Assembly (NCBI GenBank): GCA_027592785.1 | Contig: JAQCLD010000004.1 | Coordinates: 21,798 to 85,797 of the forward strand | DNA length: 64,000 bases | Direction: 5' to 3' | Origin: Acidobacteriota bacterium | GTDB lineage: Bacteria; Acidobacteriota; Terriglobia; Bryobacterales; UBA6623 | Program-made: the position numbers and the translations under genes | Notes under the pieces: generated by a model | What the model was told of the DNA's origin: nothing | The model's input: only the letters and a program-made list of their open reading frames with translations | Databases searched by the model: none | Shown: one piece after another, positions 41,677 through 61,204 of the stretch | How the letters are laid out: the number at the start of each line of letters is the position of its first letter | Numbering within the stretch: the stretch's first letter is position 1

Positions 41677-43035
41677 ATGCACCCCTTACTTGTTCTACTA
41701 CTAGCCACGATCGCGGTGTTCGTGCTGATCATCCGCCTCAAGATCAATGCCTTTGTCGCGCTGATCTTGTCCGCCATATTGATCGGTATCCTGTCGCCTC
41801 AGATCGCCTTGGCCGATGTGATACCGGAAGTCACTTCGCGATTTGGCAGAGTCGTCGGCAACATTGGCGTGGCCATCGCCATGGCGGCAGTGATCGGCCA
41901 CTGCCTGATGGAAAGCGGCGCGGCGGACAAGATCACCAGGCAATTCATACGCTGGCTGGGAGAGAAATACTCTTCGGCATCGATGCTGGTCAGCGGCTTC
42001 GTGCTGAGCATCCCGGTCTTCTCCGACACGGTCTTCTACCTTCTTATTCCGCTGGCGCGCGCCATGACCATCCGCAACGGCGGACGGCGGTATGTGCTCA
42101 ACGTTCTATCGATCGGGGCCGGCGCGCTGGCGACACACATCTTCGTCCCGCCGACTCCGGGGCCCCTGGCCATGGCCGCGACGTTGAATATCGATATCGG
42201 AATCGTGATGATCGTGGGCCTAATAATCGGCGTACCTTCCGCGTTCGCCGCTTGGCTCTACGCGATATGGATTGACCGTCGGCTCAATATCGCTGTCCGC
42301 GAAGCTCCGGGAGCGAGCATCGCGGAACTGGAAGATATTGCCAAGCGCCCAGAAGCCGACTTGCCGAGTTTCTCCTCCTCGCTGTTGCCTATCGTGCTGC
42401 CGGTCGTCTTAATCACCGGGAACACCGTGAGCAACAACCTATATCCTGGTTCCGCCTTTGCCCAGCAAATGGCCTTTTGGGGCAACGCGAACCTCGCCCT
42501 CATCCTCTCCGCCGCGTGCGCCCTTTGGGGCCTAGCGCGACAGAAAGGCCTGGGACTCCGCGGTCTAGCGGGGCCCGCAGAGAAAGCTATCAAGGACGCT
42601 GGCTTGATCATTTTGATTACCGCCGGTGGGGGAGCCTTCGGCGGGATGCTCGTAGCGGCGGGAGTCGGCGATGTGTTGAGCGAGGGCGCGACGAACGCTG
42701 GAGTTTCCTATTTAATTCTTGGCTTCGGAACCGCCATGCTTTTGCGAATCGCTCAAGGGTCAGCCACAGTCGCCATGATCACAGTCGCCCAAATCCTAGC
42801 CCCTATCGCTGCCGGCGCTCCGCTGGCTTACCACCCGGTCTATTTACTCATCGCCACCGGCGGCGGATCGATCACGGCCGGTTGGATGAACGACAGCGGT
42901 TTCTGGGTCTACAGAACAATGACCGGCCTAACCGAGATGGAGGCGCTCCAGACCAAAAGCGCCTGCCTTTCCGTCATGGGTGTGACGGCGTTGCTTTGCG
43001 CCTGGCTAGGAACTGTGCTCTTCCCGATGGTTTGA
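41677..43035 (+). CDS. GntP-family gluconate:H+ symporter, paralogue 1
   Basis: 452 aa multi-TM protein; ATHIFVPPTPGPLAMAA, AQGSATVAMITVAQ, GGGSITAGWMNDSGFWV. Confidence 0.92.
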   Translation: MHPLLVLLLATIAVFVLIIRLKINAFVALILSAILIGILSPQIALADVIPEVTSRFGRVVGNIGVAIAMAAVIGHCLMESGAADKITRQFIRWLGEKYSSASMLVSGFVLSIPVFSDTVFYLLIPLARAMTIRNGGRRYVLNVLSIGAGALATHIFVPPTPGPLAMAATLNIDIGIVMIVGLIIGVPSAFAAWLYAIWIDRRLNIAVREAPGASIAELEDIAKRPEADLPSFSSSLLPIVLPVVLITGNTVSNNLYPGSAFAQQMAFWGNANLALILSAACALWGLARQKGLGLRGLAGPAEKAIKDAGLIILITAGGGAFGGMLVAAGVGDVLSEGATNAGVSYLILGFGTAMLLRIAQGSATVAMITVAQILAPIAAGAPLAYHPVYLLIATGGGSITAGWMNDSGFWVYRTMTGLTEMEALQTKSACLSVMGVTALLCAWLGTVLFPMV

Positions 43036-43079
43036 TCGCGGTATTCCGATAGCCAGGGTTCGATTTCGGCGGCTAGTCC

Positions 43080-43096
43080 GCTATCATGTCCGTTCG
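43080..43096 (+). promoter_or_regulatory. Putative promoter element GCTATCATGTCCGTTCG, copy 2
   Basis: 15/17 match to 41637-41653. Confidence 0.35.
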
Positions 43097-43108
43097 AGTT
43101 CGGCCACG

Positions 43109-44467
43109 ATGCACCCGTTAATCGTCCTCCTCATCGCCACAATCGCAGTTTTTCTGCTGATCATTCGCTTTAAGATCAACGCTTTCGTCGCGTTGATTCT
43201 TTCCGCCATTTTGATCGGCATCCTCTCGCGGAACATACCACTCGCTAGCGTGATCCCTGAAGTGACGTCGCGCTTCGGCGATGTCGTCGGACGCATCGGC
43301 GTGGCCATCGCCATGGCTGCCCTGATCGGCCATTCGCTGATGGAGAGCGGCGCCGCGGACCGGATCACACGGCAGTTTATCCGTTGGTTGGGCGAAAAGT
43401 ACTCTTCGCTGTCGATGTTGGTCAGCGGCTACGTGCTGAGCATCCCTGTATTCCACGACACGGTCTTTTATCTATTGATTCCTTTGGCCAGGGCGATGAC
43501 CATTCGCAACGGCGGCAAGCGTTATGTTCTGAATGCTTTGTCCATCGGCGCCGGCGGCGTAGCCACGCACCTATTCGTGCCGCCGACTCCGGGGCCGCTG
43601 GCCATGGCCGCGACAATGAACCTCGATATCGGACTGGTGATGATCGTTGGCCTGACGATCGGCATTCCGTCATCTCTGGCCGCCTGGTTATACGCCGTCT
43701 GGATCGATCGCAAGTTAAACATCCCGATGCGCGAGGCCCCCGGTGCGTCGCTGGCCGAGTTAGAAGAAATCGCCAACCGGCCTGAGAGCGAACTGCCCGG
43801 CTTCTTCGTTTCGATGTTGCCGATTGCGTTGCCAGTCTTGCTCATCACCGGTAACACCGTAGCCAACACGTTCTTTTCGGGCACCGCGTTCGCCCAGCAG
43901 ATGGTTTTTTGGGGCAACGCCAACGTGGCGCTGATTCTTTCCGCAGCTTGCGGCTTGTGGGTTTTGGCGCGGCACAAGAATATGGGTCTGCGCGATCTAG
44001 CCAAACCCGCTGAGAAGGCCATCAAGGACGCCGGTCTGATCATTATGATTACGGCCGGAGGCGGCGCTTTCGGCGGCATGCTGGTCGCCGCCGGAGTTGC
44101 GGACTCGCTGAGCCAGGGCGCGTCCGACATGGGCATCTCCTATCTCTTCCTCGCCTTCGGAGTCGCCATGATGCTGCGCGTCGCGCAGGGTTCGGCGACC
44201 GTCGCAATGATCACTGTGTCCCAAATGCTGGCCCCGCTCATCACGCAGTCTCCGCTTCCCTACCACCCCGTCTATCTACTCATCGCGACTGGCGGCGGGG
44301 CTATCATGGCCGGCTGGATGAATGACAGCGGCTTCTGGGTTTACAAGACGATGACCGGTCTCACCGAAATGGAAGCGCTGAAGACCAAGAGCGTGTCGCT
44401 CTCAGTCATGGGACTGACGGCGTTTCTGTTCGCCTGGCTCGGTTCGATCTTCTTCCCGATGGTCTGA
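43109..44467 (+). CDS. GntP-family gluconate:H+ symporter, paralogue 2
   Basis: 452 aa, colinear with the preceding GntP throughout. Confidence 0.92.
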   Translation: MHPLIVLLIATIAVFLLIIRFKINAFVALILSAILIGILSRNIPLASVIPEVTSRFGDVVGRIGVAIAMAALIGHSLMESGAADRITRQFIRWLGEKYSSLSMLVSGYVLSIPVFHDTVFYLLIPLARAMTIRNGGKRYVLNALSIGAGGVATHLFVPPTPGPLAMAATMNLDIGLVMIVGLTIGIPSSLAAWLYAVWIDRKLNIPMREAPGASLAELEEIANRPESELPGFFVSMLPIALPVLLITGNTVANTFFSGTAFAQQMVFWGNANVALILSAACGLWVLARHKNMGLRDLAKPAEKAIKDAGLIIMITAGGGAFGGMLVAAGVADSLSQGASDMGISYLFLAFGVAMMLRVAQGSATVAMITVSQMLAPLITQSPLPYHPVYLLIATGGGAIMAGWMNDSGFWVYKTMTGLTEMEALKTKSVSLSVMGLTAFLFAWLGSIFFPMV

Positions 44468-49699: not shown

Positions 49700-51454
49700 G
49701 TGACCGCGCGCCCGCACGCCGTATACGTCCTAACTTCCTCGCTGGCCGCGCGCCGCATGTTCGCGGGCCACGGACGATTATGGCGGGCCGCTAACATCCG
49801 GGTCACCGTAATCAGTTCGCCCGGCCCCGATTTGGAGCGCTTCGGGATCGACGAAGGCGTCGAGACAGTGGGCCTGCCGATGGAACGCGGACTGAGCCCA
49901 TTGCGCGATATCGTTTCGCTCTACCGGCTGTGGAGCGAGTTCCAGCGCCTGCGGCCCGAACTGGTGGAGTGTGGTACGCCCAAGGCCGGCTTGCTTGGCG
50001 GCATCGCGGCTAGATTGGCGGGAGTCCCTGCTTCGCTCTATACACTGCATGGGCTTCGCTTAGAAACGCTTCGCGGCTGGCGCCGCGGGCTCTCGCGCCT
50101 TGCAGAGAGGCTCACCGTGAGACTTGCGGACGAAACCATCTGCGTCAGCCCCAGTCTGTTGAGGCAGGCGCGAACCTTGGGTGTCATCCCTGCTCATCGC
50201 GGGTTAGTGGCTGGCCCCGGAAGCGCCGCCGGAATCGACGCCGCCAGATTCGCTGCAATCGCTCGCCAGAGTCCTCGGAGTCAGACTGTCGGATTCGTCG
50301 GGCGGCTTACGCGGGACAAGGGCATCGTCGAACTCGTCAAAGCTTTCGACATCGTGAAGAGGCAACGACCGGACGCGCGACTACTGCTGGTGGGCGACTT
50401 CGAAGCCGGAGATCCCGTACCGCCGCAGATCCGCGAAAAGATCCTCCAGGACCCCGCAATTCGAGTCACGGGCTTTGTGGCGGACGCGACTCCGCACTAC
50501 GCCGATATTGACGTCGTCGCGCTGCCCTCTTACCGCGAAGGCTTTCCGCTCGTCGCCCTCGAAGCTGCCGCAGCAGCCCGTCCAATCGTTGCCGCCAACT
50601 GTACCGGAATGTGCGACGCCGTCGTCGACACGAGGACCGGTCTGATCGTCCCCATTGCCGACGCTCCGGCCCTTGCCGATGGAATACTGCAACTACTCGA
50701 GTCGCCGGAGACTGCCACAAAAATGGGCCAAGCAGCCCGAGGCCGCGTCCTCCGCCAGTTTCAACCCGATCTGATCTGGGTCGATAAATTCGAGCTCTAC
50801 GGGCGTCTCATCGAAAGCAATCCGATCGGGCGCCCAGCGTTGCAAGCGGCGGTCAAGCGTACCTTCGACGTGTTGGCCGCTCTGGCGCTGATGATCCTAT
50901 TCAGCCCGGTCATCGCCTTGATCGCTCTTGCTCTGTTGGCATCGCGGGCCGGTCCCATTCTCTTCGGCCAGGTGCGGCCCGGCCATCGGAAACGTCTCTT
51001 CGTGGTCCACAAATTTAGGACGATGTCCAATGCGCGATCGGCCTCTGGCGAGCTGCTTCCCGACAACGAGCGCCTCAGCAGGGCAGGACGATTCCTGCGC
51101 CGTTGGAGTCTCGACGAACTTTCCCAGTTGTGGAGCGTTCTGCGCGGCGAAATGAGCCTCGTCGGTCCCCGTCCGTTGCTGTCCGCGTACCTCTCCCGTT
51201 ACTCTCCCCGGCAGGCTTGGCGTTTTCTCGCTCCGCCGGGACTGACCGGCTGGGCTCAAGTTAACGGCAGAAATCAGTCCGAGTGGGAACATCGACTTGA
51301 GTTGGACGTCTGGTACGTCGAGAACTGGAGCCTGAGGCTAGACCTACGAATACTCGTCAAAACGCTTTCGATCGTTCTCAGCGGTCAGGGCGTGGAAGCC
51401 CGTGAGTCGGCGACTCCGTCTCCGTTTCTCGTAGTTCTACACCGGCGGCCCTAA
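49700..51454 (+). CDS. Fusion of GT4 glycosyltransferase with WcaJ/WecA-unrelated bacterial sugar transferase (phosphoglycosyltransferase)
   Basis: GT4 half (VGFVGRLTRDKGIVELVKAF, LPSYREGFPLVALEAAAAARPIVA) followed by KRTFDVLAALALMILFSPVIALIAL...VHKFRTM...RRWSLDELSQLWSVLRGEMSLVGPRPLL. Confidence 0.92.
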   Translation: MTARPHAVYVLTSSLAARRMFAGHGRLWRAANIRVTVISSPGPDLERFGIDEGVETVGLPMERGLSPLRDIVSLYRLWSEFQRLRPELVECGTPKAGLLGGIAARLAGVPASLYTLHGLRLETLRGWRRGLSRLAERLTVRLADETICVSPSLLRQARTLGVIPAHRGLVAGPGSAAGIDAARFAAIARQSPRSQTVGFVGRLTRDKGIVELVKAFDIVKRQRPDARLLLVGDFEAGDPVPPQIREKILQDPAIRVTGFVADATPHYADIDVVALPSYREGFPLVALEAAAAARPIVAANCTGMCDAVVDTRTGLIVPIADAPALADGILQLLESPETATKMGQAARGRVLRQFQPDLIWVDKFELYGRLIESNPIGRPALQAAVKRTFDVLAALALMILFSPVIALIALALLASRAGPILFGQVRPGHRKRLFVVHKFRTMSNARSASGELLPDNERLSRAGRFLRRWSLDELSQLWSVLRGEMSLVGPRPLLSAYLSRYSPRQAWRFLAPPGLTGWAQVNGRNQSEWEHRLELDVWYVENWSLRLDLRILVKTLSIVLSGQGVEARESATPSPFLVVLHRRP

Positions 51455-51463
51455 TCAGCCGAT

Positions 51464-52153
51464 GTGCTCCGTATGCGCCGCTCCGCTCTGCATCGCTGGT
51501 ACGTGAGCAAGATCTTGGCGCGACATAATACTTCCCGGCCAATCCAACAGGCCCTACACCAGGCGTTGCGAGAACTCGATGCCTCGTCCGCTCCGGGCCT
51601 CAACGTGGGCTGCGGGGCTACTAACCTGCATCCTAGGATACTGCGCGTGGACCTCGACCCGTTAGCGCTCCCAGACTACCTCTCCTCCGCGGACAAGCTT
51701 CCTTTCGCCGACAACACCTTTTCCGTCGCCGTCTCCCAGGAGGTTCTGGAGCATTTGCGCGAGCCGCAACTAGCGCTAGCGGAACTGGCCAGAGTCGTTC
51801 GCCCAGGCGGATTGCTCTACCTGCAAACCCCTTTCATAATTGGCTACCACGCCGCGCCGGCTGACTATTGGCGCTTCACCCACGAGGGGCTGGCGGCCAT
51901 GTTGCAACGCGCCGGATTGGCTGTCGAAGCCTTGGAACCAGCAGTCGGACCAGGCACCGCGCTCTATCGAATCGTCGTCGAGTTCGTGTCCGTCATAGCG
52001 GCGCGAGTTTACCCTTCCGCATATTTACCGGCGAAAGCCCTCGCCGCGGCTTTGCTGGCGCCGCTGCGCTGGTTCGACTCTTGGTTAATCGTGGGCGAAC
52101 AGCGTTGGCGCATTCCTGGAGGCTGTCTTGCGCTAGCGAGGAAGCCGATATGA
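51464..52153 (+). CDS. SAM-dependent methyltransferase (Methyltransf_11 type)
   Basis: LNVGCGATNLHPRILRVDLDP...AVSQEVLEHLREPQLALAELARVVRPGGLLYLQTPF. Confidence 0.82.
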   Translation: MLRMRRSALHRWYVSKILARHNTSRPIQQALHQALRELDASSAPGLNVGCGATNLHPRILRVDLDPLALPDYLSSADKLPFADNTFSVAVSQEVLEHLREPQLALAELARVVRPGGLLYLQTPFIIGYHAAPADYWRFTHEGLAAMLQRAGLAVEALEPAVGPGTALYRIVVEFVSVIAARVYPSAYLPAKALAAALLAPLRWFDSWLIVGEQRWRIPGGCLALARKPI

Positions 52154-53169
52154 ACGTGCTGATCTCCTCTGCGGGCCGCCGCGTTGGGTTGCTCGAATGT
52201 TTCCGCTCCGCTCTAGGTGCGCTCGACGCTAACGGCAAGATCATCGCTGCGGCCGCCTCCGACACAGCCCCCGCGTTGCACTTCGCCGACGAGACTTGCA
52301 CCGTACCGCGATGCGATAACCCTCAATTCATTCCGGCGTTGGTTGAGGCCTGCGCCGCGCATCACGTCGACGCCATCGTGCCGACCATCGACACGGAGCT
52401 GGCCGTCTTGGCGGCGCATCGAGATGAACTCCAGAGCACAGGCGCGGCGCTTTGGCTGTCTAGTTGCGAGACGATTGAGATCAGCGCTGACAAGCGCGAA
52501 ACAAACCGCTGGTTGCACAACAACGGATTCCCAGCCGTTTCGCAGTTCACGCCTTTTGAGGCCTTGGAGCAAGTGTCCGCCCTGCCCTTCCCGCTGATCG
52601 CCAAGCCTGCTCGGGGCAGTGCTTCGGTGGGCGTCAAACGCATTCACAACCGGGCAGAGTTAGAAGCGTGCCTCAACCGAGACCTGGTCATCGAGACCCT
52701 GGCGCCGGGAGTCGAATACACCGTGCATGTCTGGGCCGGGGCCAAGGGTAGAGCGCTCTGCGCCGTCCCCTGCCGTCGTTTAGAGGTTCGCGCCGGAGAA
52801 GTCTCCAAAGGACGCACAGAGAAGCACGACGGACTGATGCAGCTTGCGTCCGAGGTCGTAGACGCGCTGCCAGGATGCCGCGGTCCCCTCAACGTGCAGA
52901 TTTTTCTCGATCCCACGGCCGGCATGCGCGTCATTGAAATCAACCCCCGCTTCGGCGGCGGATACCCCCTCGCCGACCGTGCCGGGGCGCGATTCACGAA
53001 GTGGATGATTGACCCGTCGGCAAGCCCCATTCATTACTACGACGGCTGGGTCGACGGACTCACCATGCTGCGCTACGACTCGGCGGTCTACACCTTGCCC
53101 GATGCGCCGTCCAACCCAGACACCAAGGCGGTCCATGCTTCAAGCGACCTGCTTCGTACTCGATCTTGA
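52150..53169 (+). CDS. ATP-grasp (CarB-like) ligase
   Basis: MNVLISSAGRRVGLLECFRSAL...PLIAKPARGSASVGVKRI...RVIEINPRFGGGYPLADRAGA; ATGA overlap with the previous gene. Confidence 0.85.
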   Translation: MNVLISSAGRRVGLLECFRSALGALDANGKIIAAAASDTAPALHFADETCTVPRCDNPQFIPALVEACAAHHVDAIVPTIDTELAVLAAHRDELQSTGAALWLSSCETIEISADKRETNRWLHNNGFPAVSQFTPFEALEQVSALPFPLIAKPARGSASVGVKRIHNRAELEACLNRDLVIETLAPGVEYTVHVWAGAKGRALCAVPCRRLEVRAGEVSKGRTEKHDGLMQLASEVVDALPGCRGPLNVQIFLDPTAGMRVIEINPRFGGGYPLADRAGARFTKWMIDPSASPIHYYDGWVDGLTMLRYDSAVYTLPDAPSNPDTKAVHASSDLLRTRS

Positions 53170-53868: not shown

Positions 53869-54543
53869 CTACGGGCTGACCGACTCATCGCGCAAGTCGT
53901 CGCCGCTTGATACGACGCCCGCCGTCGCTGCCGCCGCACCGGCCGTCGCAATCAAAGCCAACTTCGTGGCCGATAGCTTGCCGACACTCCATTTACCCTT
54001 CGTCGCGGCGCTCTCCGCCCCACGACTTGTGGTGCCCTTTGTGGTTGAGTCTTTGGGCGGCTGCGTACCTTGAGGGGCCGCCGCGGCCATCGCAAACGAA
54101 CCCGCTGGCACCATTGTTCTGCGCCCGTCGCGGTCGCGAATCAAGGCGTCTCCACGATACGCGGCGACCAGCACTTGGCCGTCCGTCTCGGAAACGACAA
54201 ACCACGCCTCGTTGTTTGCGCCCCCCGCCGAAACCGCCGTATCACCTAACACGATGTCGTGGCCGGATGAACCCACCACGCCGCGATGCAGGTCCAGAGA
54301 GTCTCCGCGGAGGGTAACCGAGCTGTCAGGCCGTATCTCCAAACGATGAGTCCCAATACCCAATACCGCCACGCCGCTGGCATCGGTTTGGATGCGGTCT
54401 CCGGCGTAAACGCTGGACCCGCTGGGCAAGGCAACCTGGTTGGTCCAAACCTTGCCCGAGACCGTCAGGCCTCCGAGGGAATCGGCGAGTAACGGGCTGC
54501 CCGTTAGGGCGATGACTAGCAACAGACAGAATCGTGTTCGCAT
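53869..54543 (-). CDS. FecR-like exported protein with hydrophobic C-terminal segment
   Basis: Signal peptide, VYAGDRIQTDASGVAVLGIGTHRLEIRPDSSVTLRG, C-terminal LALIATAGAAAATAGVV. Confidence 0.65.
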   Translation of the reverse strand: MRTRFCLLLVIALTGSPLLADSLGGLTVSGKVWTNQVALPSGSSVYAGDRIQTDASGVAVLGIGTHRLEIRPDSSVTLRGDSLDLHRGVVGSSGHDIVLGDTAVSAGGANNEAWFVVSETDGQVLVAAYRGDALIRDRDGRRTMVPAGSFAMAAAAPQGTQPPKDSTTKGTTSRGAESAATKGKWSVGKLSATKLALIATAGAAAATAGVVSSGDDLRDESVSP

Positions 54544-54642: not shown

Positions 54643-55803
54643 CTAGCGAGAAACCGCTACAACACCTTGCGACACGGCTGCCGCAATCCCCGCGATGACC
54701 TTTGCATCGGCCTCTGAAACGCCGCGGTGTATCGGCAGGCAAACGACCTCGCGGCTTGCCCGCATCGTCTCCGTCAACGGCTCTCGATCCGGATCGTGGA
54801 ACTCGCGATAGAGCCTCTGTTCATGAAGCGGCGGGTCGAAGTATCTGCGCGTTTCCACCCCCGCCGAGTCCAGCGCCGCCTCGATGGCCTCGCGTCTAAA
54901 TCCCTGGTCGGTTCGTACAAACAGGGCGAAATCCTTGCGCCCGCTCGTGGTGTTGCCCGGAATCGTTTGTAGACGAATCCCCTCAACCGGCGACAGTTCC
55001 TGTTCATATATCGCAGCGATCCTGCGGCGGCGCTCAATCGAGGCCGGCAACGAGGACAAGCCTTCGCGGCACAACGCGGCTTGAAACTCCGTCATGCGCG
55101 CATTCAGGCCCAACACTTCGCAATCATAGGCGACGCCTTTGCCGTAGTTGCGGGCCTGGCGCAGAGCTGTTGCCAACGCCGCGTGACGAGTTGCGATCAG
55201 CCCGCCCTCGCCTGCCGTGAGCTGCTTCGTGGGCGACAAGCTATATACCGTCGCATCGCCCCATGCTGCAACCGTCCTGCCGTCCACCGTCGCGCCCAAC
55301 GCGTGTGCTCCGTCGAAGATCAACGGGACGCCCCGACTCCTGGCCAAGTCGTCTAACTCCACAACCGGCGCCGGACAGCCAAACAAATGCACGCCCAGTA
55401 TCGCGCCCGTCTCGGGCCCTATCGCGCGGGCAACACTCCGCGGATCGATCTGCGCGGTCTGCGCGTCGATGTCAGCAAATCGCGGCCTCAAACCGTTCCA
55501 CAACAATCCATGCGCGGTAGCAAAGAACGTGAAACTCGGCGTAATCACTTCCCCGCAAAGATTCAGACATCTCTCCACCAACATCAGTCCTGACGTGCAA
55601 CTGGAGACGGCCACACAATGCGCGACACCAAGCGCCTCCGCTACTTCGTGCTCCAACCGCTCGACTTCCACGCCGTTCGTGAAGGAGCCGCTCTCCAGCA
55701 CGGTGCGCAAGCGGCCGAGCGTGGCATCGATATCCGGCGTCTCCGGCTGGGCAATCGCAATTCGCCTTCCTAGGCGCGACGGTGTTGTCATCGACTTCCT
55801 CAC
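54643..55803 (-). CDS. DegT/DnrJ/EryC1/StrS aminotransferase
   Basis: VAVSSCTSGLMLVERCL, EVITPSFTFFATAHG, SLSPTKQLTAGEGGLIATRHA. Confidence 0.9.
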   Translation of the reverse strand: MRKSMTTPSRLGRRIAIAQPETPDIDATLGRLRTVLESGSFTNGVEVERLEHEVAEALGVAHCVAVSSCTSGLMLVERCLNLCGEVITPSFTFFATAHGLLWNGLRPRFADIDAQTAQIDPRSVARAIGPETGAILGVHLFGCPAPVVELDDLARSRGVPLIFDGAHALGATVDGRTVAAWGDATVYSLSPTKQLTAGEGGLIATRHAALATALRQARNYGKGVAYDCEVLGLNARMTEFQAALCREGLSSLPASIERRRRIAAIYEQELSPVEGIRLQTIPGNTTSGRKDFALFVRTDQGFRREAIEAALDSAGVETRRYFDPPLHEQRLYREFHDPDREPLTETMRASREVVCLPIHRGVSEADAKVIAGIAAAVSQGVVAVSR

Positions 55804-57239
55804 AAGTTAGTAGAAGGCCGCAATCGCGGCGAAACCCGAACTCTCTGCACTCTCCGGGAACGCGCTCGGGCCAGGCTGTCTCCCACAAGACGCGCCGCGA
55901 GCGTCAGCGCCAGACCCCAAATCGCGGGCCTCACAAAAACGCCCGAACCATTTCGCGTCGCCCACAACAGCGGTCCCAACACCATGCCCAAACAAGCAAG
56001 TTGCGTCGGACGCCGCAGATCCATCCGGTCGACCCGCACCAGTCCGTAACCGAGCAGCCAGAAGGCCAGCGCCACGCCCCATGGGCCGAAGTTCATGTAC
56101 GGCTCGGCCACCGCCGAGCAACCTAGGCCGCCAAAGTTTCGGTAGTTACACGGGGCCGCCAGTCGAGAGACCCAGTGGCTAGGCGGCAGGTCCTCCACCG
56201 GCAGATAGACGTCTCCCCCCCAGCGCAACGACAGATTCGGAACAATCTGCTTTACCGCCTGTGAATACGTACGGCCCCAGCGGTACTGCTCGTTTTCCAT
56301 CAGGTCGATCGTATGGATGAGCGGCCGCAAACTTCCGCCCATTTCCTGAATCGCCTCCAGCGGCGCCAGCGAAAGGTCACTCGCCGCCATCGTGCGCTCC
56401 GACAATTTCGTATCCCGAAGCTGGCGCGACATGGGGATCGCGATCAGCACCGCAGCCAATCCGCCTGCCCAGGCCCAGCGAGGCAATCGCACGCCACGTT
56501 TCGTCAGAATCACCAAACACGCCGCTACTGGCGTCAGCGCGAAACCTCGATACCCCAGCACGAATATCAGGCCTGCCCAGGCCGCGCCCGCCCAGGCCAA
56601 CGCGGATAGGCGCTCTCGCGGCGCCGCGGCCAGAGCCAAATAGAAACCCATCGGCGTCAGCTGCAAACTGGTCACGAAGAAACGCGGATCGTAGGTTCGT
56701 GCCAATCGATAAGTCTCGAAATGTGTCGCTGCCATGAAGCTTCCAAAACCCATCTCCCGTATGCCCCACAACAACGACGCGCCTCCGGCCGCAATCGCCG
56801 CTAGGCCGCAGTAGAACAGTGCCCCGTTGTGCCACTCGCCTTTCGGCGCATCGGTATGCACCCGTGTTCCACGAGCCGCGGCCGACGTTGCGCCCCAGGC
56901 GAAGCAACCAAGCGCCAAAACCAACAACAGCAACGCCGCATGCAGCGATCCGCTCCGTACCCAAGCAGGAATCGGTCCTACCGCTATTCCTGCTGCAATC
57001 GGCAGTACGAGTCCCAAGTGAAAGACCGCCAGAATGTTTAAGTAGACCGAAGCTGGCGACAACGCACTCAGCCGCAGGGGTCCCAGCAAAACCCAGTTGC
57101 AGAACAGCAGGCAGAGCCCGGCAGACAGGCTCGTCCAGCGGTCGTCTCCCAGCCAATACGCCGTCGCGGCCAGCATGCCTGGTACGAGCACGACGCTCGC
57201 CAGCACGAAACCCGATCCAGTCCGCCGTCGCTCCATCAA
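55800..57239 (-). CDS. Polytopic Wzy-like oligosaccharide repeat-unit polymerase candidate
   Basis: Multiple TM segments; position between DegT aminotransferase and glycosyltransferase. Confidence 0.6.
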   Translation of the reverse strand: MMERRRTGSGFVLASVVLVPGMLAATAYWLGDDRWTSLSAGLCLLFCNWVLLGPLRLSALSPASVYLNILAVFHLGLVLPIAAGIAVGPIPAWVRSGSLHAALLLLVLALGCFAWGATSAAARGTRVHTDAPKGEWHNGALFYCGLAAIAAGGASLLWGIREMGFGSFMAATHFETYRLARTYDPRFFVTSLQLTPMGFYLALAAAPRERLSALAWAGAAWAGLIFVLGYRGFALTPVAACLVILTKRGVRLPRWAWAGGLAAVLIAIPMSRQLRDTKLSERTMAASDLSLAPLEAIQEMGGSLRPLIHTIDLMENEQYRWGRTYSQAVKQIVPNLSLRWGGDVYLPVEDLPPSHWVSRLAAPCNYRNFGGLGCSAVAEPYMNFGPWGVALAFWLLGYGLVRVDRMDLRRPTQLACLGMVLGPLLWATRNGSGVFVRPAIWGLALTLAARLVGDSLARARSRRVQRVRVSPRLRPSTNL

Positions 57240-57260: not shown

Positions 57261-58394
57261 CTACGAACTGAAGGGCGCCTCGACGAGAGGCTCGCGCCCG
57301 TCGGCCAGCGCACGTATCGCTCTCTCGTAGAACCCAACCAGCCGTTCGGCGCTCATGCGGCTGTCGAACCCTGCCAAGGTCATCCGCCTCACCGCATCGC
57401 GCCGTGGCAACCTGCCGCGCCGCACCGCCCTCACCATCCGCTCGGCCCAGCCCCCGGCTCCCGTTTCCAACGAGAGAGTCTCGATCATCTCCGGCAGCAC
57501 AAACAGCTGACCGCCGATTCGGTCCGACGTCAAACAAGGCAAGCCCGCGGCCTGCGCCTCTAACAACGCGACTGGCAGCCCTTCATGCAGCGAAGGCATC
57601 ACAAAGGCATCGAAAAGTCCTGTAAGCAGCGCCGGGATATCCCCACGGCGTCCCAGAAAATGTATCCGCTCCGCGCAATCCAGAGCCCGCGCCTGTTCTG
57701 CCAATTGGCAGTCGAGCGGACCCTCACCCGCGATCGCCAGGTGCAGCCTCGGTTCCGCAGCGGCTGCCTTTGCGAACGCCTCAAGCAGGAAAGCCTGGTT
57801 CTTCTGGCGCGTCATACGCCCAACATGTCCTATGACCAAGGCGTCAGCCGGAATACCGAAATCCGCACGCCGCAGCAGCTTGCAGGGTTCCAGAAACGGC
57901 CGCAGGTCCACGCCGTAAGGCAACCACTCCGCCGGCCTCTCCAAGAACTGTTGCGCATCCGTCGAACAAGCCAAAGCGTGCGTCGCGCAAGGCCTGAGGC
58001 CCCAACGCATCAACATCCGATACGCTTGCCGCGGCAAACCCTGCCCGCGCCCGTCCTGTGAGTTGTGCGCGTGTGCGATGCGCACCGGCACGCCTGCCGC
58101 CTGTGCAATGGCCGCGATCACTCCGCTAAACAGCAGCACATGCGAATGGACGACCGAGTAATTTCCCTCGCGAATGAGCCGTTTTAGTCGCCCCGGTCGC
58201 CGCGAGCAGTGCTGCACCACGATCCCCGACCGCCGGAACTCTTCAGCCAGCAGCCCCTCGCGGTCATCCAGCAGACAGAACTGCGGCGTCCAGCCACGCT
58301 CGATCATCGTCGGCGCCACCGCCGCCAACCAAGTCTCCGCCCCGCCCGTATGCAGCCCGCCAACCACGTGCAGCACCCGCCGTGTCGTCTTCAT
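57261..58394 (-). CDS. GT4-family glycosyltransferase
   Basis: VVGGLHTGGAETWL...VIGHVGRMTRQKNQAFLLEAFAKAA...VMPSLHEGLPVALLEAQAAGLPCLTSD. Confidence 0.92.
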   Translation of the reverse strand: MKTTRRVLHVVGGLHTGGAETWLAAVAPTMIERGWTPQFCLLDDREGLLAEEFRRSGIVVQHCSRRPGRLKRLIREGNYSVVHSHVLLFSGVIAAIAQAAGVPVRIAHAHNSQDGRGQGLPRQAYRMLMRWGLRPCATHALACSTDAQQFLERPAEWLPYGVDLRPFLEPCKLLRRADFGIPADALVIGHVGRMTRQKNQAFLLEAFAKAAAAEPRLHLAIAGEGPLDCQLAEQARALDCAERIHFLGRRGDIPALLTGLFDAFVMPSLHEGLPVALLEAQAAGLPCLTSDRIGGQLFVLPEMIETLSLETGAGGWAERMVRAVRRGRLPRRDAVRRMTLAGFDSRMSAERLVGFYERAIRALADGREPLVEAPFSS

Positions 58395-58582: not shown

Positions 58583-60073
58583 CTACTTCAAATACAACTC
58601 ATCGAACAGTCCAATATCCGCATACTCCTCGAACCAATCCGCCAGCTTCTCGTAGTGCTCTTCCCGTGTCGCCGAACTCTCTACCGTCTTCGCCGGCCGC
58701 GATCTTCGTTGTAACACCTCATCCAGCAACTCAGCCACAACCGTCGCGCTCTTCAAACTCCCCCCGAAAATCGTTCCCACAATCCCGCGCTGCCGGAAAC
58801 CCTCCGGTTGCCCGCCAATCGTCGCGAATGGCGACGGACCAGCAGCCAGGCTTTCAATCGGCGCCCGCGGCACGTCGACTTGGAACTCGATCTCCTTGTC
58901 CGCCAGCGTCGCCGTCATCTCTTCCCTACCCCGGTCCGGCAAGATGTCGGCCTGCATCGGCAACAACCCCAACCCAGGAACCCGTGTTCTATCCGGCGTA
59001 CTCGAACTGGGGTCCGACACGAATCGCCCCAGCATGTGGCAACCCCCACCGAATCCCCAGATCGCCGTTCCCTCTTTCCGGCGATCCAAAACCCAGCGGT
59101 CCAGGCCGGTCCGTTTCAGCCACAGAAGGTCGCCCAAGGTTGATAGCGTTGGCGGAATGATCACCACGTCCGGATCGTAGCGGGTCGGCTCCGTGACGTA
59201 CTCCGCCTCGCCCAGCAGGTCGAACTCACCGTCGCTCGAGCGCCCTGGTAGGTCCAGGATCACCACCCGCAACTCGTCCCGCGAGATCGTCGCCGGAGCA
59301 CTTTCCGATCCGCTGCCCAAGCGAATAGTCCGCGAGCGCGGCAGCAGGCCCAGGCAGGGACGCCCAACCCGCTCTTCGACGATTTCTATCCCTGATTCAA
59401 AGCTTCCATTTGGGCTACGAAACTCATTGATAACCCAAGCCAGTATGAGTTTTTGCTGTTCCTCAGTCGTCATGAGCATCGTGCCCACCAATGACGCGTA
59501 AACGCCGCCCCGTTCGCCGTTGCACGTCAACAGAACGCGACTGTCCAGCCGTTCTGCCAAAGCTAGATTAGCCAGGGCGGAGACAGGCTGGTCCAGCTCA
59601 AGCGCCCCGCCCAGCCCATCAATGACGACGCAGTCCGCAGCAGCCGACAGCCTCTCGTAAGCCGCCGCAATACGTTCGTTCAGCACCTCGAGCAACGGCG
59701 AAAAGTCGAGTGTGTCCAGCCTCCGCCAGGGCTTGCCGTCGGCCAACAAATCGTAACCGCCACCGGGAGCTGGTACGCAGCGCAACGGATTCATGTCGGT
59801 CGTCGGCGCGACGCCGCACGCCTCGGCTTGTCGCGCCTGTTCCAAGGCGATTGAGCCGCCTGCGCCGCAACGTGCCGCCTCCGTGGAGAAGCTCAATGCT
59901 TGAAAAGGAACGACCCGCACGCCTCGCCGATGCAGATGGCGGCAGATAGCCGTGCTAATCCATGTCTTACCGCTACGCGCGCTGGTTCCCGCAACCAGCA
60001 ACGATGGCGGTCGGCGACCGAGACTCCGGCGCGCCGTGCGCCAAAGCGAGCCAAACAAAGTCTGTTGTTTCAT
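58583..60073 (-). CDS. CobQ-like (cobyric acid synthase family) P-loop protein with degenerate glutaminase domain
   Basis: GTSARSGKTWISTAICRHLHRRGVRVVPFQAL; QARQAEACGVAPTTDMNPL; CNGERGGVYASLVGTM; GLLPRSR; but WGFGGGCHMLG and GIVGTIFGGSLK replace the GATase Cys and His motifs. Confidence 0.82.
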   Translation of the reverse strand: MKQQTLFGSLWRTARRSLGRRPPSLLVAGTSARSGKTWISTAICRHLHRRGVRVVPFQALSFSTEAARCGAGGSIALEQARQAEACGVAPTTDMNPLRCVPAPGGGYDLLADGKPWRRLDTLDFSPLLEVLNERIAAAYERLSAAADCVVIDGLGGALELDQPVSALANLALAERLDSRVLLTCNGERGGVYASLVGTMLMTTEEQQKLILAWVINEFRSPNGSFESGIEIVEERVGRPCLGLLPRSRTIRLGSGSESAPATISRDELRVVILDLPGRSSDGEFDLLGEAEYVTEPTRYDPDVVIIPPTLSTLGDLLWLKRTGLDRWVLDRRKEGTAIWGFGGGCHMLGRFVSDPSSSTPDRTRVPGLGLLPMQADILPDRGREEMTATLADKEIEFQVDVPRAPIESLAAGPSPFATIGGQPEGFRQRGIVGTIFGGSLKSATVVAELLDEVLQRRSRPAKTVESSATREEHYEKLADWFEEYADIGLFDELYLK

Positions 60074-60259: not shown

Positions 60260-61204
60260 ATGTTCGGAAGCGTCTCCCCCGAGTCTCCCTCGACTGAAGT
60301 TAACGTCAACATGGCCGGTCTCTGCTGTCCAGTCTGCCGTGGCGCGCTGGTGCGCGAGGCGGCCGCTTTGCGCTGTATGGCTTGCGACCGAATCTATCCC
60401 GAAGTCGGCGGCGTGCCTTGCTTAATCGATCCCGTAGTGAGCGTCTTTGGACACAATCCGCCGCCGGCGCCCGCGGCGAGTTTGGCGGCGCGCCTCCTTC
60501 CGGCATTGAGCGGCAATCCCGTATCCGCGGATAATTACCGGCGGTTCGTCCAACTCGCTGTCGCCGAGAACGACCGTCCACGCATCCTCATCCTTGGCGG
60601 AGCAGCGGTCGGCAAGGGACTTGGGGCTGCTCTTGGAGATTCGGGCGTCGATTGGATTGAAACCGACGTTTTCCCTTCCCCTCGAACTCTGTTGCTCTGC
60701 GATGCCCACCAAGTTCCTTTTGAGGACTCCAGCTTCGACGCGGTGATCGCTCAAGCCGTGCTTGAACATACGCTGGACCCGCAACTCGTCGTGTCTGAGA
60801 TCCATCGTGTTCTAAAACCCCATGGGATGGTTTACGCTGAGACGCCGTTCATGCAGCAGGTCCATGCGGGCGCTCACGACTTCACGCGGTACACCCATTT
60901 GGGGCACCGCCGCCTGTTCCGCTTCTTTGAAGAGATCGAATCCGGTCCGGCTTGCGGACCCGGCATGGCGTTGGCTTGGAGCTGGCAAGCCTTCTTGACC
61001 AGCTTTGCAGGGGGACATCGCGGACGCCGCATCGCCGCGTTGATCGCGCGTCTAACAGCCTTCTGGCTCAAGTATCTCGACCCGTTCCTGGTCCGCCGGG
61101 CCGCCGCCTATGACGGCGCGTCGTCTTTCTATTTCTGGGGGCGGCCAGCGCCGGAGCCGCTAGACGATCGAGATTTGATCGCCTCCTACCGCGGGATCCA
61201 ATGA
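60260..61204 (+). CDS. Class I SAM methyltransferase with N-terminal Trm112-like zinc ribbon
   Basis: CCPVCRGALVREAAALRCMACDRIYPEVGGVPCLID; FDAVIAQAVLEHTLDPQLVVSEIHRVLKPHGMVYAETPF. Confidence 0.85.
   Translation: MFGSVSPESPSTEVNVNMAGLCCPVCRGALVREAAALRCMACDRIYPEVGGVPCLIDPVVSVFGHNPPPAPAASLAARLLPALSGNPVSADNYRRFVQLAVAENDRPRILILGGAAVGKGLGAALGDSGVDWIETDVFPSPRTLLLCDAHQVPFEDSSFDAVIAQAVLEHTLDPQLVVSEIHRVLKPHGMVYAETPFMQQVHAGAHDFTRYTHLGHRRLFRFFEEIESGPACGPGMALAWSWQAFLTSFAGGHRGRRIAALIARLTAFWLKYLDPFLVRRAAAYDGASSFYFWGRPAPEPLDDRDLIASYRGIQ

Follow-up and report, generated by a model that had tools for sequence, protein, structure and literature searches.

P0001, a protein encoded in the window (the whole 64,000-nucleotide stretch of DNA that was analysed), is shown by profile comparison to be a CobQ/CbiP (cobyric acid synthase) paralogue, homologous over both domains. 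The reading that we prefer, and hold with about even confidence, is that of a pseudoenzyme which derives from CobQ, has had its fold under selection and has been kept for binding. Judged by the residues that it has lost, P0001 is very probably not a cobyric acid synthase, and both of its halves are probably catalytically dead. Such a protein would still fold like CobQ and could bind nucleotide, i.e., its P-loop would hold ATP or another nucleotide; it would also bind a partner or a ligand, and would neither hydrolyse glutamine nor form acyl phosphates. If functional, P0001 would be a CobQ pseudoenzyme in which only the fold and the grip on ATP are kept, and it would show how amidotransferases can come to be recruited into the biology of surface polysaccharides. 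Automated annotation would call the gene "cobyric acid synthase", because it passes the cut-off of the NCBIfam model PRK00784 by 1.6 bits, and would assign to the locus a B12 step that P0001 almost certainly cannot carry out. Coordinates are collected in Table 1.

Table 1. Features discussed in the text, by position in the window or, for the riboswitches, in the locus named.
Feature	Position	Strand	Remarks
GT4 fused to WcaJ-type sugar-1-phosphate transferase	49700..51454	+	
SAM methyltransferase	51464..52153	+	
PylC-like ATP-grasp protein	52150..53169	+	
FecR-like secreted protein	53869..54543	-	without Pfam match
DegT/DnrJ aminotransferase	54643..55803	-	4-nt overlap with Wzy
Wzy-type O-antigen/EPS polymerase	55800..57239	-	PF14296
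GT4 glycosyltransferase	57261..58394	-	downstream of P0001 after 188-nt gap
P0001, CobQ-derived protein, 496 aa	58583..60073	-	intact ORF and full-length CobQ homology
Codon 437, catalytic His (YLHG) to Gly	58763..58765	-	CobQ alignments and GatD mapping
Codon 342, glutaminase nucleophile Cys to Gly	59048..59050	-	CobQ alignments and GatD mapping
Codons 149-157, VVIDGLGGA, EGAGG/S Glu to Asp152	59603..59629	-	CobQ alignments; Asp152 aligns with BioD Glu115
Codons 58-78 region, K38>Q58 and E54>S74 lost	59840..59902	-	CobQ alignments
Codons 29-37, P-loop GTSARSGKT, Walker A intact	59963..59989	-	near-invariant G29, G35, K36 kept
Divergent SAM methyltransferase	60260..61204	+	
Cobalamin riboswitch	L029:16855-17058		before canonical cobQ or btuB-cobQ
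Cobalamin riboswitch	L030:12969-13178		before canonical cobQ or btuB-cobQ
Cobalamin riboswitch	L028:10807-11011		before canonical cobQ or btuB-cobQ

Descent from CobQ and residues lost from both halves

The first-pass annotation had the ORF, its strand and its length right and had taken its product for a relative of CobQ, which is correct: the ORF is on the minus strand, encodes 496 aa and has an ATG start and zero internal stops, and PRK00784 (cobyric acid synthase) matches residues 24-489 far beyond chance (274.6 bits, E 1.4e-81; cut-off 273). TIGR00313 gives 209.8 bits against a cut-off of 309.9, and the CobQ of genome G007 reaches 562.8 and 458.5 bits with the same two models. The Pfam matches, all above their cut-offs, are CbiA/AAA_26 for the N-terminal half and GATase_3 for the C-terminal half. 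The CobB/CbiA models stay at 27 and 26.6 bits (cut-offs 261 and 254, not reached); since the homology to CobQ is full-length and that to CobB/CbiA amounts to about 27 bits, P0001 is CobQ-derived, not CobB- or GatD-derived. Its identity is 40-41% to the G007 CobQ and 37% to the second CobQ of its own genome. Please note that single-sequence AlphaFold prediction of P0001 (pLDDT 35.7) gave no usable structure model.

P0001 resembles CobQ/CbiP in both domains, their order, the length, the P-loop and most of the near-invariant glycines and prolines, but it differs in the dyad and in the amidoligase/substrate residues, which are lost, in the lack of adjacent B12 genes or a riboswitch, and in the presence of a normal second CobQ in the same genome. 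Briefly, 102 columns were taken as near-invariant, with an identity of 95% or more across 48 other CobQs; P0001 keeps 54 of them, i.e., 35/65 in the synthetase half and 19/37 in the glutaminase half, whereas the worst of the other CobQs keeps 87% and the median is 99%.

In the glutaminase half, both residues of the catalytic dyad are replaced by glycine, C327>G342 and H422>G437 (CobQ residues are numbered throughout as in L028:9267-10709). Aligned with the G007 CobQ and with the second CobQ of its own genome, P0001 has GFGGGCH for GICGGYQ, VDVPRAP for YEIHMG, so that the conserved His of this motif is also lost (R403), and IFGG for YLHG. The nucleophile Cys is retained in 77/77 other CobQs examined. 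When the CobQ profile is aligned to the solved structure of GatD (5n9m), the experimentally supported catalytic dyad of GatD, C94/H189 (PMC5871853), falls on the columns of G342 and G437. The two substitutions that had been proposed from the letters are confirmed by these alignments, and the apparently dead glutaminase is supported. The Cys within GFGGGCH, Cys345, occupies the Tyr/Phe/Met column of CobQ and not the nucleophile position, and no His partner for it is present at positions 437 or 403. The C-terminal half of P0001 is the same kind of GATase as GatD of the lipid II amidotransferase MurT-GatD; however, GatD works with MurT as a subunit of its own, with the two catalytic residues in place, while the P-loop half of P0001 is fused, and no MurT-like (Mur-ligase-like) partner was found among nine neighbours scanned.

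The ATPase half had been said to keep three CobQ segments, which holds for the P-loop and not for the other two; by the counts given above, the share of near-invariant residues lost from this half is as large as that lost from the glutaminase half. Compared with the CobQ consensus GTxSxxGK[ST], the Walker A motif is intact and Ser12 has become Ala32. VVIDGLGG and CNGERGG, which had been listed as kept motifs, are in fact altered relative to EGAGG/S and DIDRGG (E to D and D to N, respectively). The substitutions at near-invariant residues are K38>Q58, Q40-N41-M42>L60-S61-F62, N45>E65, E54>S74, R57>L77, K80>V100, E132>D152, D146>A166, and D165>N185; a published D146N mutant of CbiP is reportedly disturbed in the order of amidation. 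The canonical FKAQNMSxNS reads FQALSFSTEA (57-66) and GEIGRAQ reads GSIALEQ (73-79), and both substrate motifs of CobQ are gone, i.e., FKxQNMSxNS and NPxLLKP, the latter being replaced by NPLRCVP. In the alignment with E. coli BioD, CobQ K38, E132, and N196 correspond to Lys37, Glu115, and Asn175, which we take to be catalytic or adenine-binding residues. P0001 belongs to the same P-loop amidoligase superfamily as BioD and CobB/CbiA and keeps Walker A and the adenine-side Asn (N216), but it carries Gln and Asp at the Lys37 and Glu115 columns, and scores 274.6 bits as CobQ versus 27 as CobB. The likeliest interpretation of this pattern is that nucleotide binding survives in P0001 and that amide-bond chemistry does not. 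In long phosphate acetyltransferases an N-terminal BioD-like P-loop domain is kept for regulation, not catalysis; P0001 matches the model of that domain weakly (E 2.7e-5, residues 129-218), but it is without the acetyltransferase domain and has the GATase half of CobQ.

These losses bear on the function that the first-pass annotation had suggested, i.e., a working P-loop ligase in which a carboxylate such as that of a uronic acid is activated by ATP and joined to free ammonia or another amine. The synthetase part of CPS I is intact. Tetrapod CPS I demonstrates that loss of the glutaminase Cys alone can leave an ammonia-using enzyme (PMC7657897), and a ligase would be consistent with the intact P-loop and Asn216 of P0001 and with the acidic or amino sugars that its DegT and ATP-grasp genes make plausible for the cluster. 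The model is weakened, however, because the synthetase residues that it needs are eroded too: Q58 and D152 stand at the BioD Lys37 and Glu115 equivalents, S74, A166, and N185 likewise replace near-invariant residues, and the substrate motifs are lost. Moreover, no co-occurring homologue was found in other glycan clusters of the genomes searched, and we consider a ligase improbable.

Selection on the fold versus decay

The near-invariant residues were not lost evenly. P0001 retains 27/31 of the Gly/Pro positions and 14/45 of the polar ones (Fisher p 1.5e-6). As Gly and Pro are encoded by fourfold-degenerate codons, the comparison with neutrality was made at codon level, i.e., neutral substitution was simulated on the G007 cobQ codons to an equal total loss under two transition biases. 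The simulated sequences kept about 17 Gly/Pro positions on average (sd 2.2-2.4, maximum 25) versus the 27 observed, and 22-23 polar positions (minimum 16) versus the 14 observed; the split of 27 Gly/Pro and 14 polar was reached in 0/400 runs under either bias. A neutral walk to 200 amino acid changes introduced about 14 stops on average and at least three in all 300 runs, and P0001 has none. The excess of Gly/Pro together with the stop-free ORF indicates that selection preserved fold-type residues during much of the divergence. A loss of catalytic residues combined with more retention of fold residues than neutrality allows is the pattern of a pseudoenzyme, here in one sequence; only one such sequence being known, the selection on P0001 was judged from simulation and not from dN/dS between relatives. 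That the fold was selected for a new binding role seems to us about as probable as its opposite.

The main rival to a pseudoenzyme is a recently released, dying gene, namely a duplicate or displaced cobQ whose job has been taken over by another cobQ and which is drifting, with no stop yet, next to polysaccharide genes unrelated to it. Several observations fit it: P0001 is a singleton at the end of an extreme branch (3.9-5.0 changes/site in our trees, versus a median of 0.27-0.41), the active sites of both halves are eroded, a normal-looking CobQ exists elsewhere in the genome, and the gene may sit at a former place of cobQ, as will be seen from the neighbourhood in another genome. On the other side, about 280 residues differ and yet neither a stop nor a frameshift has accumulated, with about 14 stops per 200 changes expected under neutrality, and the combination of Gly/Pro retention with polar loss lies outside the 400 neutral runs. 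We regard decay as rather unlikely, although the simulations are compatible with selection that may have ended recently. In the free tree, P0001 and the G007 CobQ form a pair (93/70), and a constraint that groups it with the CobQs of its own genome and of G002 is not rejected and scores slightly higher (p-AU 0.67). The GC content by codon position (0.64/0.51/0.70) is nearer to the neighbours of P0001 than to the related CobQ genes and is not decisive.

Canonical CobQ, cobalamin loci and the search for relatives

The host genome (93.7% complete) encodes its second CobQ, with the dyad intact, on contig C40. That gene adjoins a BtuB-like receptor, BtuF/C/D, PduO, CbiZ, CbiB, and a cobalamin riboswitch (113 bits), i.e., the locus is a riboswitch-headed B12 uptake/salvage locus. 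Cobalamin gene context and a riboswitch are likewise present at the canonical cobQ of G002 and G007; over the three genomes of this family, the riboswitches that precede canonical cobQ or btuB-cobQ score 99-113 bits. In the window, a search for 12 cobalamin proteins returned none besides P0001, in agreement with the earlier remark on the absence of other cobalamin genes, and no cobalamin riboswitch was found there or just upstream of P0001. The remnant of a B12 riboswitch ahead of the gene was considered and rejected, nothing having been found at that place. The absence of the riboswitch from the window and the loss of CobQ residues from both halves support the earlier view that P0001 is not a cobalamin enzyme. 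An accessory role linked to B12, either as a sensor that binds corrinoid or as a partner that regulates the true CobQ, would agree with the CobQ descent and the remaining full-length fold match; nevertheless, the near-invariant substrate motifs QNMSxNS and NPxLLKP are lost and the locus is without B12 genes and without a riboswitch, and we think such a role quite improbable.

No close relative of P0001 was found in 18 genomes of the family, 257 of the order, 399 of the class, and 396 of the phylum, the best match in these searches being the G007 CobQ at 41%; nor was a second member of its type found in the same samples, beside polysaccharide clusters or elsewhere. By its sequence, P0001 lies outside functional CobQ and is a singleton so far. 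We found no description of a CobQ like this in the literature searched. Two phylum genomes, G564 and G646 (L105, L112), have two CobQ matches each, and the inspected copies keep the Cys.

The polysaccharide neighbourhood and a possible binding role

The GT4, Wzy, and DegT genes that had been noted on the strand of P0001 are all there. GT4 and Wzy are separated by 21 nt and Wzy and DegT overlap, and the gap between P0001 and GT4 is wider (188 nt); a scan for promoters and terminators gave nothing above shuffles. The ATP-grasp gene, which had been noted further upstream, is on the opposite strand, about 5.4 kb from P0001. The FecR-like gene may belong to the polysaccharide locus; a homologue (39%) also lies beside DegT in G007. 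The GT4-WcaJ fusion is one polypeptide of 584 aa, and G002 encodes a protein 53% identical to it.

In such surroundings, P0001 might have been kept as a nucleotide-dependent switch or scaffold on the adjacent Wzy-type polysaccharide machinery; alternatively, it might act on a ligand that occupies the cleft of the former active site. We consider a binding role in the adjacent glycan pathway, which is linked to P0001 at this one locus, possible but tentative. The more specific proposal, i.e., a cobyric acid synthase turned into a protein that binds nucleotide without catalysis and controls or assembles a Wzy-dependent surface polysaccharide, we consider doubtful; if true, a B12 enzyme fold would have been recruited into glycan export.

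Comparison with other genomes urges restraint. Homologues of Wzy (45%) were found in G002, G018, and two contig-end pieces of G007, and none of these three other genomes has a P0001-like gene. The strongest caution against a glycan role of P0001 comes from G002, in which a GT-WcaJ/methyltransferase/ATP-grasp module homologous to 49700-53169 of the window and a BtuB-CobQ pair under riboswitch control are 2.8-5.2 kb apart (C14:158931-169045; L030, L083). The ATP-grasp gene of this module was found in only 2/13 genomes searched. That a CobQ gene is linked to the module in two genomes points to a neighbourhood of long standing, so the address of P0001 may be inherited from an old arrangement of cobQ and glycan module rather than reflect recruitment.

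Genome G018 has Wza-Wzc-GT4-Wzy in line, with Wzc just upstream of GT4-Wzy, i.e., in the slot that P0001 occupies here, and the P-loop kinase domain of Wzc (BY-kinase) also matches Pfam CbiA. P0001, in contrast, is a full-length CobQ, and the Wza-Wzc of the host genome is on contig C106; that P0001 might be a degenerate Wzc was rejected, since its homology to CobQ reaches the C-terminus and a separate Wzc is encoded in the genome. Elsewhere in the window (41677-44467), two GntP-family permeases are 80% identical over 452 aa ungapped, i.e., a tandem duplication.
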